Shown: positions 3,817 to 53,298 of the stretch, in pieces
Numbering within the stretch: position 1 is the first letter of the stretch
How the letters are laid out: every line of letters begins with the position of its first letter
Origin: Planctomycetota bacterium
Lineage (GTDB): Bacteria > Planctomycetota > UBA1135 > GCA-002686595
Direction: 5' to 3'
NCBI GenBank assembly: GCA_012959525.1
Contig: DUDB01000037.1
Span: 1 to 64,000, forward strand
Length of the DNA: 64,000 nucleotides
Position numbers and translations under genes: made by a program
The notes under the pieces: generated by a model
The model's database searches: none
Told to the model about the DNA's origin: nothing
What the model saw: the letters and a program-made list of their open reading frames with translations, nothing else

Positions 3817-6800
3817 CTATCGGGGAACGAACGAACGCAGGCCAGCCCCGTCCGAGATCCAAAGGCGTCCCTCGGGGGCATCCACGGAGGACTGCTCCCA
3901 GGCCACGTACTCCCAGGAACCGGTGAGCAGGACCGTGTCGGCGGCCTCCTCGGCAGATCCGTGCCAGTGCACGAAGTAGGCCCCGGCCTTCAGGACCACC
4001 GAGTGCTTGCCCTCGGCATCCGGGAACTGCGTGCGCTCGGGGGCCTCCCGGCGGCGGTAGACGTGCAGACCCCGCTCCCCGCCGAAGCGCTGGGAGTCGT
4101 GGTTCAGGTCCTCGTCGTCCACGTTGGTAAGGACCTTGGGCGCGAGCTCGTGGGTCCAACCCAGGCCGCGACCGTCGGCCAGGCGCACACTGATGCAGTC
4201 CGGACTGGGGGCGGGGCCCGAGACCGGCGCGGAGCCCAGGTCGAGGGGACCCTCGGTCGTGCCGTCCTCGGCGTTCAGGATCCAGACACGGCCGCCCTCG
4301 CTGACGAGCAGCATGTGCCCGGGACGGCGGGGCAGGAAGACCGGCGCGCGGGCGATGCCCGAGAGGGTCTCCAGACTCTGCTCCCAGAGCACCTTGCCGT
4401 GCGCGTCCAGACAGGCGATGTGTCCATCCCGGTCGGTGACCACGCGGTTGGCGTTGACCTCCACGGGCAGGGCGTCCACACGCGCTTCCCGTTGCCAGGC
4501 GTGAAGAGGAACGCGGGAGAGAACCACCAGCTGGTCACTGGGCCGCTGAACCTGGATCTCACGCGACTCATAGCCGGGGTGGGAGATCTCGAGGTGGATC
4601 ACTTCGTCGAGGGCGGATTCCAGATGCACAGGGTGCGCACCGAGGGGCTCGCCCCCGCGCATGATCGCGGCATCCGCCGGAAGGGTCTGCACGGTCCAGG
4701 GCAGCTCGAAGAGGCGTAGATCCTCGACGACTTCGCCAAGCCGTTCTAGGCCGAGGCCGTGTTGGCCTTGTTGTGCCAGCTCGCGAGCCTCGTCCAGGCG
4801 ATCACGCTGCAGGGTGAGCTTGTCCAGACGCTCGGCTAGGGCCAACTCGAGGTCGCCGCTGGAGTCGATGCGCAGGATGTCTCCGTACAACTCAAGAGCG
4901 CGGTGGAACGAGCCCTTCGTGGCCAGGGCCTCCGCCTGACGCATCCAGGTCTCCTGACGCGTCAGATTCTCGACACGGCGTTTCTCAAGGGTGAGTATCG
5001 CGCGCGTCTCCTGCCTGGTCTCGAGTAACTCCTCGGCTTCAGCGAGAGCGCTGACCCAAACCTGACGCTCGAGAGTTGAGAGTCCGCTGGACTCCAACTT
5101 GGATGCGATGGCCGCGAGGTGTGCTTCAACCCCCTCTTCATCTTCGATCTGCTGGGCATGATCCGCTTCGGGCTCACCGCCACGCTTCAGGTTCGCGACC
5201 AGGCGTTGCACGAGGGCCTGACGGAGGTCACCCACGTCGGGGAAGCCGCGTGAGACCCGGCGCACCTTGGGCGGCGACGGGAGCTGCAAGATCTGCTCCA
5301 GGGCGAGGATGGGGTCGCCCAGGGTGGCCTGGTGCTGGACACCTCCATAGGCCTCCAGCCAATCGGCGCGCAGCTGCGTGTCGTGGCGCAGCTCCTCCTC
5401 TCGCAACTGCTCGCGCAGCTCCTGTACGTCGGCCCCGTCGTCTTCCGCGAAGTCGCCGGCCAGCTGGGCGAGAGCCTGGGTGGGGGAGGCGGAGAGGGAT
5501 TGGACCTGCTGGAGCCGCTCGGCCCGGTCGCGCTTGCCGCGCACCTGTACCAGGGCGGTGCCGGCCACGAGCAATGCCATGGCCAAGAGGGCCACGAGGG
5601 GGCGGCCGGTCAAGAGCGGGTGCAGGTCCAGACTGCGAATACCCGCCGCCCGGCGCGCTTCCGCGAGGGCCTGACGTGCTTCACGGTTGCGACCGTCGTG
5701 TTCGAGCAGGATGCGCAGGGGCGCGATGGCCTCGCCCGCACGGTCTTCTTCAAGCAGCTGGCGGGTCGCGCCCAAAATCCAAGGCGTTGCCTCCTCCGTT
5801 CGGTCGGCGATGGCCAGGCCTATGCCCAACTCCAGGCGGATCTCAAGGGGTGAGTCACTCGCGGATCCCATGTGGCGCGCCGCCAGGTTCAGGAGGGGCA
5901 GGGCGCGATGCGGCGTACCGCGGGATTGGAAATTGCGGGCCAGTGTCAGCCAGTCCTCGATGGGGGGAGGCGACTCGGGGCAGATCTCGTCGCGTTCCAG
6001 CACCTGGGTGGGGACTCGGCGAGGGTGGACGCTGTGCAGCAACGCGATGGGGTCGAGTTGATCGATCTCTACGATTGCGGACCACTGCTGGTCAGCCAGG
6101 GTCGGGTCGGCGAGGGTCGCGTGCAGACGCCGCAGCAGCGTGCGGCGAGCGGATGCCGGCATCGGGCGCACGAGGGACAACAAGCTCCCAGCCAGACGTT
6201 GCGCCGCAACGGCCGGCATGGGACCCGGCGTGCCTTCGCATGCCCAGGTCTGCAGGCGCCTGCTGGCACGGCTGGTCTGGCCCGCATTCAGGCAGGCCTG
6301 GGCCAGGTCCAGGTATTCATCACCGCGGCGGATTCCGAGAGCTCCGAGGCGCACGCCGCGGGCCATGCAGGAGAGGGCACGGCGCAGAGGCCAGCCCAGG
6401 CGGTCGGCGATCTCTTGCAGGGTGCGTTGGCCGGTTACCGCCGCCAGGAATTCAGCGGGCAACTCCCGGGCGGCCTGTCCTTCGGGGTCGGCCTCAAGCG
6501 TGCATCCAACCGTGTCCGGACTCAGGCCGTCACAGGCGCTCTCTTGTTCACACTCGTCCTGCACGCGCGCGTACTCGAGGAGAAGATGTTCCACGTCGTG
6601 GGGGTGTTCGGGGCCGTCCATGTCCTCGGAGGGCTCAAAGCAGAAACGCACCTCGCTGCCATCCAGGAGGGTGTAGCACTGCTCCAGCCGGCGCCCGAAG
6701 GCCACGGTCTCCATGTGCAAGCCACCGGCCTGGCTATCGCCCTCGTCGGCCCAGGCATCCTGCGCGGCATTGCGCCAGCGCTCGCTGTCCTCGCCCTCGG

Positions 6801-6954
6801 GGGCGAGCAGCTGGACGCGACCCTGCAGCAGGCTGAAGACCAGACTCTGTCCCTTGTGGACGGTCAGGGTCAGACGCCCGGTCCGACACCCACCGGCCAG
6901 ACCCTGCAACAGCTCGGCCAGGCCGATTCCTTTGACGTCTCCATGAAAGCTCAT
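3817..6954 (-). CDS. DUF4388 - TPR - transmembrane - PEGA - propeller protein
   Basis: This is a 1045-residue multidomain protein. Residues 1-110 match the DUF4388 (PATAN-like) pattern (GIGLAELLQGLAGGCRTGRL), common in proteins tied to bacterial signalling and surface motility. A winged-helix-like segment (about 165-210) and TPR-like helices (210-440) follow. One membrane span (about 450-468, LVALLAMALLVAG) leads to a long charged coiled-coil/TPR region (480-750). A PEGA-like domain lies near 755-810 (GGEPLGAHPVHLESA, HPGYESREI). The last 230 residues have PQQ/WD-type blade motifs (GHIACLDAHGKVLWEQ, GGRVWILNAEDG). The N-terminal half should be cytoplasmic and the propeller periplasmic. Function unknown; a trans-membrane sensor or scaffold is inferred. 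Confidence 0.75.
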   Translation of the reverse strand: MSFHGDVKGIGLAELLQGLAGGCRTGRLTLTVHKGQSLVFSLLQGRVQLLAPEGEDSERWRNAAQDAWADEGDSQAGGLHMETVAFGRRLEQCYTLLDGSEVRFCFEPSEDMDGPEHPHDVEHLLLEYARVQDECEQESACDGLSPDTVGCTLEADPEGQAARELPAEFLAAVTGQRTLQEIADRLGWPLRRALSCMARGVRLGALGIRRGDEYLDLAQACLNAGQTSRASRRLQTWACEGTPGPMPAVAAQRLAGSLLSLVRPMPASARRTLLRRLHATLADPTLADQQWSAIVEIDQLDPIALLHSVHPRRVPTQVLERDEICPESPPPIEDWLTLARNFQSRGTPHRALPLLNLAARHMGSASDSPLEIRLELGIGLAIADRTEEATPWILGATRQLLEEDRAGEAIAPLRILLEHDGRNREARQALAEARRAAGIRSLDLHPLLTGRPLVALLAMALLVAGTALVQVRGKRDRAERLQQVQSLSASPTQALAQLAGDFAEDDGADVQELREQLREEELRHDTQLRADWLEAYGGVQHQATLGDPILALEQILQLPSPPKVRRVSRGFPDVGDLRQALVQRLVANLKRGGEPEADHAQQIEDEEGVEAHLAAIASKLESSGLSTLERQVWVSALAEAEELLETRQETRAILTLEKRRVENLTRQETWMRQAEALATKGSFHRALELYGDILRIDSSGDLELALAERLDKLTLQRDRLDEARELAQQGQHGLGLERLGEVVEDLRLFELPWTVQTLPADAAIMRGGEPLGAHPVHLESALDEVIHLEISHPGYESREIQVQRPSDQLVVLSRVPLHAWQREARVDALPVEVNANRVVTDRDGHIACLDAHGKVLWEQSLETLSGIARAPVFLPRRPGHMLLVSEGGRVWILNAEDGTTEGPLDLGSAPVSGPAPSPDCISVRLADGRGLGWTHELAPKVLTNVDDEDLNHDSQRFGGERGLHVYRRREAPERTQFPDAEGKHSVVLKAGAYFVHWHGSAEEAADTVLLTGSWEYVAWEQSSVDAPEGRLWISDGAGLRSFVPR

Positions 6955-7052
6955 CTACGGTTCTCCCGGGGGCCCATGGGGGAAGGCGGAAATTGCCTGT
7001 GGGCCCAGGGGTTTCATCGACCCCACCGGGAAAAACCCTGAGCAGAACGGGG

Positions 7053-7673
7053 TCAGCGGGCGCGTAGTCGGTCCAGGTCTTCGGGCCGGTCCAGGTTGTC
7101 CAGGATGGCGCGGTCCTCCACCGCCACGGAAAGCAGCGGGAGAGCCCTTTGGCGCAGGTCACGCAGGGATTCCTTTCCGTCCCATTTTGAGAGCAGTTCG
7201 CGCCCCAGGAGCATCGGGTGGCCATGGGGGGCGCTGGGGTCCGTACCCAGCCGTGGACCCAACCAACCCGATGCGGGCCGGCCCGCCTCCGCCCAGGCGC
7301 GGGCGAGAGCCTCGAACACCTGCGGGCACACGAGGGGGCAGTCCACGGGAGCCACACACAGATCCCGACCCACTCGCAGGCTGGCGGCCAACAGCAGTCC
7401 GCTGCCCCGGCCCTCGGACCAGTTCGGATTGTGGACGAGCTCGGGCAGGCCGGCATGGTCGAGAGCTTCCAGCGTGTCGGAGATGGCTCCCCTGTCGGCA
7501 CCCGTGATCACCAAGGGCGCGGAATCCCCGAGAGCTCTTCCGGCCCGCAGGAGGTGGGCGATGGCGGGTTCGCCTCGCAACTCGACCAGGGCCTTGTGCT
7601 GACCCAGGCGCGTCGAGGCCCCCGCCGCCAGGATGACCAGAGCCGGGGTGGAGAGGGTGGGGTCAGGTTCCAA
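7053..7673 (-). CDS. MobA-like NTP transferase (molybdenum cofactor type)
   Basis: About 206 residues with the nucleotidyltransferase signature LVILAAGASTRLGQHKALV at the N-terminus, a GRGSGLLLAAS-type segment, the metal-binding APVDCPLV motif and GHPMLLG near the C-terminus. This matches the MobA/MocA group that transfers GMP or CMP to molybdopterin. The TTG at 7673 is preferred because the first ATG (7739) would add a Trp-rich stretch that is simply the upstream gene read out of frame. From TTG the overlap with the E1-like gene is 11 nt. Translational coupling with that gene fits a shared cofactor pathway. Whether the nucleotide is GTP or CTP is not resolved. Confidence 0.75.
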   Translation of the reverse strand: MEPDPTLSTPALVILAAGASTRLGQHKALVELRGEPAIAHLLRAGRALGDSAPLVITGADRGAISDTLEALDHAGLPELVHNPNWSEGRGSGLLLAASLRVGRDLCVAPVDCPLVCPQVFEALARAWAEAGRPASGWLGPRLGTDPSAPHGHPMLLGRELLSKWDGKESLRDLRQRALPLLSVAVEDRAILDNLDRPEDLDRLRAR

Positions 7674-8679
7674 CGTAGCGGTCCACCAGGGCCAGGGCCC
7701 GATCGGTGTCTTCGGTGCCCTCCACCAGGGCGCGGCCATCGGGGAACAGGGTCAGCTGATGGTCCTCGACGCAAAAGCGCAGGATCGGACCGGCGCGCCG
7801 CAGGTCACTTGCCACGCCCTCGAGCTTCTTGGTCAGGCTGTCCAGGTCGAGACCGGCGCCCTGGCCGCGCACTTGCACCGTGTTGCGACCGCAGAGCGAA
7901 ACGGCGCGCTGGGTCTTGGGCTGGTCGAGCCAGGGAAACTGCCCCTGCCCACAGGCGGGGCACTCGGGGTCGGCCTGGGTGCGAATGCTGCGTACCTCAC
8001 CGTTCCACGCATCCAACTCCAGAAGGGCGGGCTTTGGATCGGGCGCGCCGCTGACGAGGCGTAGGGCCAGGCCCGCCTGCATGGAGGCGATGAGTCCGAC
8101 AGCCGGTGAGATGACGCCCGCCGTATCGCAGGTGGCCAGGGTGCCGGCGGGGGGTGGGTCGCGGAAGATGCAGCGCAGGCACGGGCCGCGACCGGGGAGA
8201 ATGGGCAGGACCAGGCCGGCGCCGCCCACCACTCCACCGTAGATCCAGGGCACACCGTGGCGCACCGCGTAGTCGTTCAGGAGATAGCGCGTGCCCAGGT
8301 TGTCGGTGCCGTCGAGCAGCAGGTCGCAGTCTCGGGCCAGGTCCGGGAGGTTGTCCGCGTCCAGATGGGTGGCGTGGGTCTCCAGTTCGGTGGGTCCACC
8401 GGCGCGGGCCAAGGTCTCGGCGCTGGCGAGGACCTTGGGCGTGCCCTCCTCGGCGTGCCGCTCGTCGAACAGGACCTGGCGCGGGAGGTTCGAGAGCTCC
8501 ACCACGTCGCGGTCCACGAGGACCAGGGTGCCCACGCCCGCACGGTGGAGATGTTGGGCCAGCACCCCGCCGAGGGCGCCGCAACCCACAAGCAGAACGC
8601 GTGCTTCTCGAACTCGCGCCTGTCCCGCGCTCCCCAAGGCGGCGAAGCGCTCCTGCCGATCGAATCGGGGGTCTGACAT
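7663..8679 (-). CDS. MoeB/ThiF/HesA family E1-like adenylyltransferase
   Basis: This 338-residue protein has an N-terminal RFDRQERF motif, a Rossmann GCGALGG nucleotide site (33-39), VDRDVVELSNLPRQ (56-69) and the DGTDN motif (near 125), all standard for enzymes that adenylate the C-terminus of MoaD or ThiS. Two CxxC pairs (CLRC near 168, CPAC near 243) should bind structural zinc. About 70 extra C-terminal residues replace the rhodanese domain found in some relatives. It is followed by the MobA-like gene (overlap) and preceded by a zinc-ribbon gene 3 nt away. Molybdopterin synthase activation (MoeB) is more likely than thiamin thiazole synthesis given the MobA-like partner. No MoaD or MoaE is in the window. 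Confidence 0.85.
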   Translation of the reverse strand: MSDPRFDRQERFAALGSAGQARVREARVLLVGCGALGGVLAQHLHRAGVGTLVLVDRDVVELSNLPRQVLFDERHAEEGTPKVLASAETLARAGGPTELETHATHLDADNLPDLARDCDLLLDGTDNLGTRYLLNDYAVRHGVPWIYGGVVGGAGLVLPILPGRGPCLRCIFRDPPPAGTLATCDTAGVISPAVGLIASMQAGLALRLVSGAPDPKPALLELDAWNGEVRSIRTQADPECPACGQGQFPWLDQPKTQRAVSLCGRNTVQVRGQGAGLDLDSLTKKLEGVASDLRRAGPILRFCVEDHQLTLFPDGRALVEGTEDTDRALALVDRYVGT

Positions 8680-8682
8680 GGG

Positions 8683-9042
8683 TCAGCTGTTGAAGTACCA
8701 GAGGGTCAGCAAGGAGATCAGGACGAGGATCGCCACGGCGTAGGGAAGCAGGGCGGCGACATCGCTCTCCGGCGGCGTGTCGATCTCGACCCAGTTGAAG
8801 TAGCGCCGCGCGGAGCCTCGGACCTCGGCTCCGCAGTGGGGGCAGGAAAGGTCACCCTCTTCGAAGGGGATCACGCCCTCGCACTCCATGCAGTAGAAGT
8901 TGCGGGCCTCGCCGCCCTCGGCCACCCCGGGGGCCTTGGAGCGCTCGCGCAGGTACTCGATATCCTCTGCGTTTGCGTCTTTGCGGGTACGCGTCCAGTG
9001 GTGGTCGCCGATGTTTCCGAAGCTCTTGCGCGGTTGGCCCAT
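8683..9042 (-). CDS. Zinc-ribbon, C-terminally membrane-anchored protein
   Basis: This 119-residue protein contains CMEC and CPHC pairs (about 49-52 and 67-70) forming a zinc ribbon, and ends in one hydrophobic span (LLPYAVAILVLISLLTLWYF), so the ribbon should face the cytoplasm. The ATG at 9042 has an AGGA five bases upstream. An in-frame GTG at 9078 is possible but less likely. It lies 3 nt upstream of the MoeB-like gene and is probably cotranscribed. Function unknown. Confidence 0.7.
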   Translation of the reverse strand: MGQPRKSFGNIGDHHWTRTRKDANAEDIEYLRERSKAPGVAEGGEARNFYCMECEGVIPFEEGDLSCPHCGAEVRGSARRYFNWVEIDTPPESDVAALLPYAVAILVLISLLTLWYFNS

Positions 9043-9131
9043 GGTGATCCTGCAAGCATAGGGTACCGCCGGGTCCACGGATCACCTCACCCGGGGGCAA
9101 GAATCGCCCGGGACTGGCCGATTGGAACGGT

Positions 9132-9587
9132 ATGGAGACTTTGAAATCCGGTCAGTCAGGTCACGCTTCGATTCCCACGCCCGCTCGCGCTGCGGGTCCC
9201 GCGTCCTTGAGACGCGTAAGCGTGGATGGGGACGTCGAGCTCACTCCGCGGCTGCGAATCGTCGGTCCCGGGCGCCGCGAGCGTCAGTACGTGGCGAGTA
9301 TCGAACAGCTAGAGCGTGAGGCACTGGAGAAGGACTCTGCCCTGATTGCGGCAACCCTGATCGAGCGCGGGACCGAGCGCTACGTGGATCGGATCGAGCA
9401 AGAGCGGATCGCGGATCGGAAGCAGCTGCAAGAAGTTCAAGCCCAGGGGAATCGACTGCTCGTGGCCATGGGTAGCATGCAGAAAGAGAACGAGCGCCTC
9501 GTGGGGGAGTTGCAACGGGCGAACAACAGGATCGCCGCAGCGCAGACGCCCGGAGTGTTCGGGCGGCTCCGGCGATTGCTGCGCTAG
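9132..9587 (+). CDS. Hypothetical coiled-coil protein
   Basis: This 151-residue protein is charged and helical from about residue 50. Heptad-like stretches (SIEQLEREALEKDSALI, RIEQERIADRKQLQEVQAQG, QKENERLVGELQRANNR) predict a coiled coil of about 90 residues, and it ends in a basic GRLRRLLR segment. There is no signal peptide or membrane span. The 5' 40 residues look disordered. I do not recognise a family. It stands alone between divergent genes, ahead of the tRNA. Confidence 0.55.
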   Translation: METLKSGQSGHASIPTPARAAGPASLRRVSVDGDVELTPRLRIVGPGRRERQYVASIEQLEREALEKDSALIAATLIERGTERYVDRIEQERIADRKQLQEVQAQGNRLLVAMGSMQKENERLVGELQRANNRIAAAQTPGVFGRLRRLLR

Positions 9588-51013: not shown

Positions 51014-51826
51014 ATGTCCGAACCCTCTGCACCCTCCTCGACGGATGACTCCGGACCCGGGGGGGCCATTCTCGGCCGGGCGCTCGTCGTGGGCGCTAGC
51101 TCGGGTATGGGAATGGAGCTCGTGCGCCAGCTGGCCGGTGCCGGTTGGGCCGTGGGCGCCGTGGCCCGCAGCTCTGACAAGCTCGAGGCTCTGGCCGCAG
51201 AGGTGGCCGGGTCGGCTCCCGCCACACCCAGCTATCCCGTGGGGCCCGTCACCATCGCCACCTGCGACGTTACGCAGACGGATCTTGCGGACACCGCCTT
51301 CGCGGAGCTGGTGGAGTCCCTGGGCGGACTAGACCTCATGATCTTCGCCGCAGGGATCATGCCCGTGGTGGGGCGCGAGGAGTACAACACCCCCAAAGAC
51401 CTCGGCATCCTCGACACCAACCTCCTGGGAGCCGTGGCCTGGTGCAACGCGGCGGCTCGGCTCTTCGCCAGTCAACGCTCGGGTACCCTAGTGGGTATCA
51501 GCTCCATCGCTGGTGCTCGCGGGCGCAAGGGCAACCCCGTGTACGGTGCCTCCAAAGCAGGGCTAGATCATTACCTTGAGGCTCTTCGCAATCGCCTGTC
51601 CGAGGTGGGCGTGCACGTGTGCACCATCAAGCCCGGATTTGTCGAGACGCCCATGACCGCGCACCTGGAGCTGGCCGGGGCCATCTCCGCAGAGGAGGCG
51701 GCGCGCCAGATTCTCAAGGCGGCGAAGAGCCGCGCGAACACGCGCTACGTCCCCTGGCGCTGGGCGCTGGTGGCGGTGGTGGTGAAGTCCATTCCCTCGA
51801 TGATCTTCAAGCGGCTGAGCATCTGA
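51014..51826 (+). CDS. Short-chain dehydrogenase, DprE2-like
   Basis: This 270-residue NAD(P)H oxidoreductase has ALVVGASSGMGMELVRQL (cofactor site), SSIAGARG and YGASKAGLDHYLEAL with the catalytic Ser, Tyr and Lys. The C-terminus (SIPSMIFKRLSI) closely resembles the end of mycobacterial DprE2, which reduces the 2-keto intermediate in converting decaprenyl-phospho-ribose to decaprenyl-phospho-arabinose. The next gene, 2 nt away, is DprE1-like, which makes that intermediate. Assignment to the exact lipid-sugar is inference; other 2'-epimerisations are possible. Confidence 0.8.
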   Translation: MSEPSAPSSTDDSGPGGAILGRALVVGASSGMGMELVRQLAGAGWAVGAVARSSDKLEALAAEVAGSAPATPSYPVGPVTIATCDVTQTDLADTAFAELVESLGGLDLMIFAAGIMPVVGREEYNTPKDLGILDTNLLGAVAWCNAAARLFASQRSGTLVGISSIAGARGRKGNPVYGASKAGLDHYLEALRNRLSEVGVHVCTIKPGFVETPMTAHLELAGAISAEEAARQILKAAKSRANTRYVPWRWALVAVVVKSIPSMIFKRLSI

Positions 51827-51828
51827 CC

Positions 51829-53298
51829 GTGAGCCCCAGTCGATCCAATAACTCATCGGCCTCCCACTCCTACGAATACGTAGAGAGCTGGGGCATGAAT
51901 GCGGGAGTCCACGGCCACGTGCTGCGCCCCCATTCGGTGGAGGCCATTCGCGAGGCCTTTTCTGAGGCGACGGCCAAGGGTCGCAAGCTGGGTCTGCGTG
52001 GAACGGGCTGCAGCTATGGCGATGCGTCAATGAACTCAGAGGGTCTCAGCTTGGATCTGACCCAGATGAACCAGATCTTGAGCTTTGATGCCGCTACCGG
52101 CATCGCCGATCTGGAGGGGGGGGTCACCATTGAGCAGCTATGGAAGCACGCCCTGCCCATGGGCTACTGGCCCAAGGTCGTCTCGGGAACCATGTTCCCC
52201 ACGGTGGCCGGCGCGGCGGCCATGAATATCCACGGCAAGAACAACTTCCGCGTAGGCACCTTCGGCGACAACGTCCTCGAGTTTGATCTGGTCCTGCCCT
52301 CCGGGGAGTTACGCACCTGCAATCGAGAGCAAAACGCCGATCTGTTCCACGCCGCCATCGGAGGGCTCGGGATGCTGGGCTGCTTCTCCCGCCTTCGCCT
52401 TCAGACCAAACGCGTCCATTCGGGCAAGGTCCGTGTGCGCGGCGAGTCCGTGCGCAACCTGGCTGCGATGATGGCCTACTTCGAAGCCGAGAAGGGCCGG
52501 GCGGATTATCTGGTGGGCTGGGTGGACTGCTTCGCGCGCGGGGATGGCATGGGTCGGGGACTGATCCACGACGCGGAGTACTTGGCCGAGGGCGAGGATT
52601 CCGAGCAGGAGCAGACCATGCAGGTGGCCTACCAGCAGCTGCCCGGCTCCATTCTGGGTTTCCCCAAGGGTGAGGTGTGGCGCTTCCTGCGTCTGATCAA
52701 CAACCCCTGGGGCATGCGCCTGCTCAACGCGCTCAAGCAGCAGGCTGGCAGGGTCGAGGGGCACCAGGGCTGGCATGAACAGTCCCACGCCGGCTTCAAC
52801 TTCCTGCTCGACTTCGTGCCCAACTGGAAGTTCGCCTACGGGCGCAAGCCCGGCCACGGGCTGATCCAATACCAGGTCTTCCTGCCGGCGGAAGTGGCCC
52901 ACGACACGTTCCTGGAGGTCCTGGGCCTGTGCCAGCGCCAGGGGCACGTGCCTTTCCTTGGGGTCTTCAAGCGTCACCGGCCCGATCCTTTCTGGATGAC
53001 CCACTCCCTCGACGGCTGGAGTATGGCCATGGACTTCAAAGTCACTCCCACGAATCGCATGGATCTCTGGCAGGCCTGCGATCGATTGACACGGATCGTG
53101 CTGGATGCGGGGGGCAAGTTCTACTTCGCCAAGGATTCGCTCATGGGTCACGAGGCCATGGTGCGCGCCTTCCCGGAGGCCAAGCGCGAGGCTTTCCTGG
53201 CCCTGAAACGGGAGACCGACCCCGGCGGGCTGCTCGAAACCGACCTGTGGCGCAGGATCTTCACCTCCAGCTCTTCACTCACGGACGGTGTGGCGTAG
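51829..53298 (+). CDS. FAD-dependent oxidase, DprE1-like
   Basis: This 489-residue PCMH/VAO-family enzyme is read from GTG 51829 so that it keeps ESWGMN, matching the start of the DprE1 fold. GTGCSYGDASMN (about 58-69), AMNIHGKNNFRVGTFGD (about 131-147, with the His that binds FAD covalently in some relatives) and IGGLGMLGCFSRLRL follow. Near 395-402 GWSMAMDF and near 430 FYFAKDS match DprE1 segments. DprE1 oxidises the 2-hydroxyl of decaprenyl-phospho-ribose. The tail reads LETDLWRRIF. It is 2 nt after the DprE2-like gene and 12 nt before the methyltransferase. Confidence 0.82.
   Translation: MSPSRSNNSSASHSYEYVESWGMNAGVHGHVLRPHSVEAIREAFSEATAKGRKLGLRGTGCSYGDASMNSEGLSLDLTQMNQILSFDAATGIADLEGGVTIEQLWKHALPMGYWPKVVSGTMFPTVAGAAAMNIHGKNNFRVGTFGDNVLEFDLVLPSGELRTCNREQNADLFHAAIGGLGMLGCFSRLRLQTKRVHSGKVRVRGESVRNLAAMMAYFEAEKGRADYLVGWVDCFARGDGMGRGLIHDAEYLAEGEDSEQEQTMQVAYQQLPGSILGFPKGEVWRFLRLINNPWGMRLLNALKQQAGRVEGHQGWHEQSHAGFNFLLDFVPNWKFAYGRKPGHGLIQYQVFLPAEVAHDTFLEVLGLCQRQGHVPFLGVFKRHRPDPFWMTHSLDGWSMAMDFKVTPTNRMDLWQACDRLTRIVLDAGGKFYFAKDSLMGHEAMVRAFPEAKREAFLALKRETDPGGLLETDLWRRIFTSSSSLTDGVA

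Follow-up and report, generated by a model that had tools for sequence, protein, structure and literature searches.

The SDR reductase and FAD-dependent oxidase genes that lie side by side at positions 51014–53298 of the window (the whole stretch of planctomycete DNA that was analyzed, 64,000 nucleotides long) encode a sister of the DprE1/DprE2 pair, placed beside that clade and not inside it. The two proteins probably act together as a two-step redox 2′-epimerase of a lipid-linked furanose, working in the manner of DprE1/DprE2. DprE1 (Rv3790) and DprE2 (Rv3791) form the mycobacterial decaprenylphosphoryl-ribose 2′-epimerase, a leading tuberculosis drug target that most accounts present as an enzyme of the actinobacterial cell wall, with relatives scattered among glycosylation cassettes. 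The features considered are as follows:

51014–51826, + strand: SDR reductase of a DprE2-like sister clade, ATG start, TGA stop, 270 aa
51829–53298, + strand: FAD-dependent oxidase of a DprE1-like sister clade, GTG start, 489 aa
40323–42314: PMT_2 (GT-C-type) membrane protein with C-terminal TPR repeats fused, 8.7 kb upstream of the pair

Only two nucleotides (cc) separate the SDR stop from the oxidase start, as a preliminary description of this DNA had noted, and the sequence features on which that description relied were all found: RGTGCSYGD (GxGCSYGD), IHGKN, FAKDS and GWSMAMDF (GWxxxxDF) in the oxidase, and IPSMIFKRLSI at the C-terminus of the SDR. The GT-C enzyme that it had placed about 9 kb upstream is the PMT_2 protein, the gene for which lies between those for an M28 peptidase and a sulfatase. 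Family searches showed a divergent UvrD-like helicase gene upstream of the SDR gene and an RlmL-like methyltransferase gene downstream of the oxidase gene; no arabinosyltransferase-like protein was found among the window proteins examined in this way, in agreement with the earlier account. Beyond the pair itself, no gene neighbor was conserved within the planctomycetes that could serve as a functional clue. The rlmL gene follows the pair in close relatives only, and other planctomycete families have ribosomal-protein/rpoA, ppdK-like or DUF72-like genes near it, named by eye from the sequence.

The window-type oxidase (E ≤ 1e-100) was present in 53 of the 61 genomes of the window's own family (f1) and was widespread in the order. 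The SDR gene lay upstream of the oxidase gene in nearly all loci examined among these family and order relatives, the exception being two genomes of family f7 (L036, L037), where it was 2 kb away and divergent. A scan of named genomes, from which only the best 80 loci were kept, gave identities of 42–67%, so that the true spread may be wider. The pair occurred in at least eight phyla among these best 80 loci: Planctomycetota, Armatimonadota, Chloroflexota, Myxococcota, Acidobacteriota (Thermoanaerobaculales), Sumerlaeota, Chlorobiota and Ignavibacteriota. The SDR gene was upstream and on the same strand in 75 of the 80, and four of the other five end at a contig edge near the oxidase gene. Recurrence on this scale shows that the arrangement is not due to chance, and that the pair, far from being an isolated case, belongs to a sister clade conserved across many phyla. 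Gene order tracks clade, with canonical pairs running oxidase–SDR and the window clade SDR–oxidase; the reversal relative to mycobacteria, already remarked on in the preliminary description, is thus a hallmark of the window clade.

Phylogenetic trees were made for both proteins with canonical references from M. tuberculosis, Nocardia, Tsukamurella, rhizobia (noe-type), Rhodobacterales, Azospirillum, Burkholderia, Granulicella, Kovacikia and Persicobacter. Distant outgroups considered as roots of the oxidase tree had branches of about 8–10 changes per site and were dropped. The oxidases separated into a window clade (33 rows) and a canonical clade (19 rows), a split supported at 100/100 and spanned by a branch of 1.6 changes per site. 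The canonical clade holds the mycobacterial, rhizobial (noe) and other DprE1/E2 proteins, including those of Sinorhizobium alkalisoli YIC4027 (L106). The SDR tree resolved the same two clades, with support of 96/91 for the window clade and 100/99 for canonical DprE2, and united them against other SDRs at 97/89. Since both trees split the window and canonical clades, the pair stands next to DprE1/DprE2, one of the two placements that the preliminary description had named as support. Of the placements that it had named as refuting, the one for the oxidase was not seen, and the one for the SDR was seen only in part. The designation of the genes as a DprE1/DprE2-like pair therefore holds insofar as they are related to DprE by sequence, fold, active site and trees, but they are not DprE proper; in the same way, the SDR is the sister of DprE2 but falls outside the DprE2 clade itself.

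The best curated family for the oxidase, a member of the broad FAD_binding_4 family, was DprE1 (NF053785), at 275.5 bits compared to 56 bits for sugar-lactone oxidases. This score is below the curated cut-off of 500 bits; on the same model, an actinobacterial control scored 753, a rhizobial noe-type protein 403 and a cyanobacterial homologue 467 bits. A profile built from 37 relatives matched near-complete DprE1 chains over their full length, at 272–282 bits, whereas all non-DprE1 matches covered the FAD domain only and reached at most 83 bits (lactone dehydrogenases 83, xylitol oxidase 54.9). The AlphaFold2 model of the oxidase (pLDDT 90, pTM 0.90) had DprE1 proteins as its best 49 matches in the PDB (E from 3e-36 to 2.5e-24). 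The closest solved structures were those of M. tuberculosis DprE1, with which the oxidase shares about 29% identity, and the oxidase is thus predicted to have the full-length DprE1 fold.

In the following, residue numbers such as His132 and Phe369 are those of M. tuberculosis DprE1 (reference row 6hfv). Oxidase residues His135, Lys137, Trp231, Gln347 and Gln349 correspond to DprE1 His132, Lys134, Trp230, Gln334 and Gln336, and Lys381, Asp402, Tyr432 and Lys435 to DprE1 Lys367, Asp389, Tyr415 and Lys418. All of these positions, together with the equivalent of Gly133, were invariant in 140 of 140 distinct clade oxidases. In M. tuberculosis DprE1, most of them are inhibitor contacts within the active site (PMC6128881). 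As a control, we considered a lone DprE1-like FAD protein of S. meliloti pSymB (L111:5881–7206), which has no adjacent SDR gene and has lost the equivalents of Lys134, Lys367 and Lys418; it likely has another function.

The SDR, which belongs to the broad adh_short family, matched PRK07102 best among curated models (199.9 bits, cut-off 267) and scored 128.7 bits with the DprE2 model NF053786, below its cut-off of 250. A solved DprE2 (21gq_C) was the third match in the PDB. The SDR has catalytic residues Ser164, Tyr177 and Lys181, a DprE2-type Arg169-x-Arg171 and a C-terminal IPxxIFKRL motif. It thereby keeps both an Arg-x-Arg before the catalytic Tyr and a C-terminal IPxxIF[KR], which the present analysis derived as DprE2 features from 16 canonical DprE2s. 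Arg169 and Arg171 were invariant in 132/132 clade SDRs and 16/16 canonical DprE2s, and none of seven other SDRs compared had Arg171. The Arg-x-Arg motif may bind the lipid phosphate.

On the most likely reading, the two enzymes act on a lipid-linked furanose as DprE1/DprE2 do. The substrate would be supplied by PPPRS, the UbiA-type PRPP:polyprenyl-phosphate phosphoribosyltransferase, which would transfer ribose-5-phosphate from PRPP onto polyprenyl phosphate, after which a phosphatase would take off the 5′-phosphate. The FAD oxidase would then oxidize polyprenyl-phospho-ribofuranose at its 2′-hydroxyl, giving a ketone that the SDR would reduce to the arabino form with NAD(P)H. Finally, after flipping, the epimerized product would serve a GT-C enzyme that acts on an envelope glycan.

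Several lines of evidence support a lipid-ribose 2′-epimerase. The first is that a UbiA-type PRPP transferase, which the preliminary description had suggested looking for, is indeed encoded in the window's genome. One of the four UbiA proteins there is a PPPRS (G000:C42:69246–70148), scoring 247 bits with PRK12324, above the curated cut-off of 207, and matching the M. tuberculosis enzyme 8j8j with E 2e-40. Its gene and the window pair are on separate contigs and are not adjacent, and the analysis picked out no dedicated phosphatase, flippase or arabinosyltransferase; both points weigh against the epimerase reading. Secondly, six Armatimonadota loci have a PPPRS gene directly upstream of the SDR and oxidase genes, for example, in L171 (complete genome CP021423):

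6343–7230: PPPRS
7233–7964: SDR
7971–9383: oxidase

Thirdly, 47 of 50 genomes carrying the pair, drawn from many phyla, have PPPRS, compared to one of 14 controls. That one was C. glutamicum, a relative of mycobacteria, which make lipid-linked arabinose.

The fourth line of evidence comes from the window's own family, in which four genomes that lack the window-type pair (G034, G039, G017 and G023; L047, L049, L324 and L325) carry a canonical oxidase–SDR pair. These canonical pairs are orthologous, 67–75% identical to that of G034, and comprise the same two enzyme types in the opposite order, with oxidases only 27–29% identical to the window oxidase. They are found chiefly in genomes that lack the window-type pair: a canonical pair was present in four of the eight family genomes without the window pair compared to one of the 53 with it (p = 6e-4). 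This figure is uncorrected for kinship, the four replacement genomes could descend from one event, and some of these genomes are incomplete. That a canonical pair stands in for the window pair in these four genomes suggests that the two do the same job. Taken with the DprE-like features of both proteins, these results leave the earlier proposal of polyprenyl-phospho-arabinose or a related 2′-epimerized donor partly supported.

A less probable reading, and the strongest of the alternatives, is that the same oxidation and reduction take place, in some or all of the clade, on a lipid-linked sugar or head group other than polyprenyl-phospho-ribose, with PPPRS being a frequent neighbor and not the supplier. 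This reading draws on the active-site pocket. In the window oxidase, Leu, His and Ala take the places of the inhibitor-pocket residues Ser228, Phe369 and Cys387 of DprE1, the two clade-specific ones being Leu228 and His383 of the window protein. The Phe369 to His change was found in 140/140 clade oxidases and, like the replacement of Ser228, mostly by Leu, Ile or Met (n = 140), is peculiar to the window clade; Cys387 is Ala in 140/140 as well, but Ala387 is usual in canonical non-actinobacterial homologues too (14 of 19 canonical rows). The clade oxidases also have longer active-site loops than DprE1, including extra residues 275–289, which fall near a loop reported to straddle the DprE1 active site (PMC6128881). 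In addition, PPPRS was undetectable in pair-bearing planctomycetes of families f15, f43, f75 and f8, and inside the Planctomycetota there was no association between PPPRS and the pair, PPPRS being present in 11/26 of those that carry the pair and in 57/190 of the others (n = 216, E ≤ 1e-30, p = 0.26). With PPPRS undetected in several pair-bearing planctomycete families, the substrate is not certain; together with the two pocket changes, this is the reason for leaving a minority share of the probability to a different lipid-linked sugar. Such a sugar fits poorly, however, with the PPPRS–SDR–oxidase operons of Armatimonadota, the 47/50 co-occurrence across phyla and the canonical pairs of the four relatives, and the catalytic core is identical to that of DprE1 in all members, those from PPPRS-less genomes included.

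A more far-reaching version, which we consider somewhat less likely still, is that the clade forms an epimerase system in its own right, conserved across many phyla and dedicated to a lipid-linked substrate other than polyprenyl-phospho-ribose, which a ChlG-like UbiA may supply in PPPRS-less planctomycetes. Such a UbiA is present in most pair-bearing planctomycete genomes without PPPRS and is absent from the window's genome. Genomes of family f5 (G064, G068, G072, G075 and others) have PPPRS but no window-type pair, which also counts against the preferred reading; they may rely on ribofuranose as such or on a different epimerase.

It is very unlikely that the two proteins are true DprE1/DprE2 orthologues, either gained from actinobacteria or members of the exact clade, that make polyprenyl-phospho-arabinose for an arabinan-like polymer. 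The nearest solved structures are those of M. tuberculosis DprE1, as this would predict, but canonical membership was rejected on the trees, with their 100/100 oxidase split and long separating branch, and on the curated cut-offs, of which the proteins fall far short (275 of 500 and 129 of 250 bits). Moreover, the gene order is reversed throughout the clade, and even the rhizobial and cyanobacterial homologues outscore the window oxidase on the DprE1 model. Least probable of all is an unrelated catabolic couple for sugars or polyols, consisting of an alditol/xylitol/aldonolactone-type oxidase and a generic SDR, which would suit the broad FAD_binding_4 and adh_short memberships but conflicts with the FAD-domain-only matches to xylitol oxidase and lactone dehydrogenases, the invariant DprE1 catalytic lysines, glutamines and histidine, and the DprE2 Arg-x-Arg motif kept in the SDR; the alditol or xylitol oxidases are accordingly not the closest relatives of the oxidase.

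The epimerase reading that we prefer can be compared with known systems. With DprE1/DprE2, the window pair has in common full-length homology, the predicted fold, the catalytic His132, Lys134, Gln334, Gln336, Lys367 and Lys418, an adjacent SDR with Arg-x-Arg and the IPxxIF[KR] C-terminus, and a PRPP-dependent UbiA enzyme in the genome; it differs in its low identity, sister-clade position, SDR-first order, lack of an adjacent arabinosyltransferase, and the pocket and loop changes. Homologues of DprE1/E2 outside the actinobacteria are already known from noeCHOP, O-antigen and pilin systems. The noeCHOP genes of Sesbania rhizobia were assigned to Nod-factor arabinosylation (PMC6689892, PMC2443382), and for S. 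alkalisoli YIC4027 the published account takes them to predict Nod factors bearing arabinose (PMC6689892). Like the window's genome, these rhizobia have a set of UbiA enzyme, DprE1-like oxidase and DprE2-like SDR, but theirs clusters with canonical DprE1/E2, has the order UbiA–GtrA–oxidase–SDR and is found in a glycosylation cassette. Kelly et al. (2024) described PPPRS as the entry point for several pentofuranoses, with DprE1/E2 homologues going with arabinofuranose (PMC11127046). The three-component pentofuranose systems of Gram-negative O-antigens share the PPPRS entry enzyme and DprE1/E2 homologues with the window's genome, but they are single cassettes with a phosphatase, flippase and GT-C enzyme, whereas the window has a lone pair with PPPRS on another contig (PMC11127046).

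If the pair works as proposed, far more bacteria than supposed may make sugar donors of the mycobacterial-wall type. Its presence in 53 of the 61 family genomes and in Chloroflexota, Armatimonadota, Myxococcota and others would imply a core envelope precursor in the form of a 2′-epimerized lipid-linked sugar, and for many of these bacteria no such sugar was described in the literature searched. The clade-wide pocket differences also offer a natural test of what sets the substrate specificity of DprE1.

Some further observations concern the UbiA proteins. The ChlG/BchG-like UbiA, with motif RPFTLLPPLLGM and a conserved NQxxDxxxD, was seen in pair-bearing, mostly PPPRS-less planctomycetes, at loci L321, L328–L338 and L290 (genomes G157, G187, G207, G225, G242, G254, G257, G272, G297, G300, G326, G067 and G071). 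One of these, G297, was initially scored as PPPRS-less and carries a divergent PPPRS-like protein. An EboC/SCO3242-like UbiA was also considered as an alternative partner and set aside, as its occurrence in 188 of 216 Planctomycetota makes it uninformative. At 13 loci (within L224–L244, Chloroflexota and others), the neighbor of the PPPRS gene is a mevalonate-kinase-like one, identified by eye from its sequence, and PPPRS may therefore be tied to isoprenoid supply. Within the window's family, methionine-adenosyltransferase-like and prepilin-like genes precede the PPPRS gene (L273:2434–10152, on G000:C42), and the window's own genome has SecA-like and Kdo-transferase-like genes immediately upstream.
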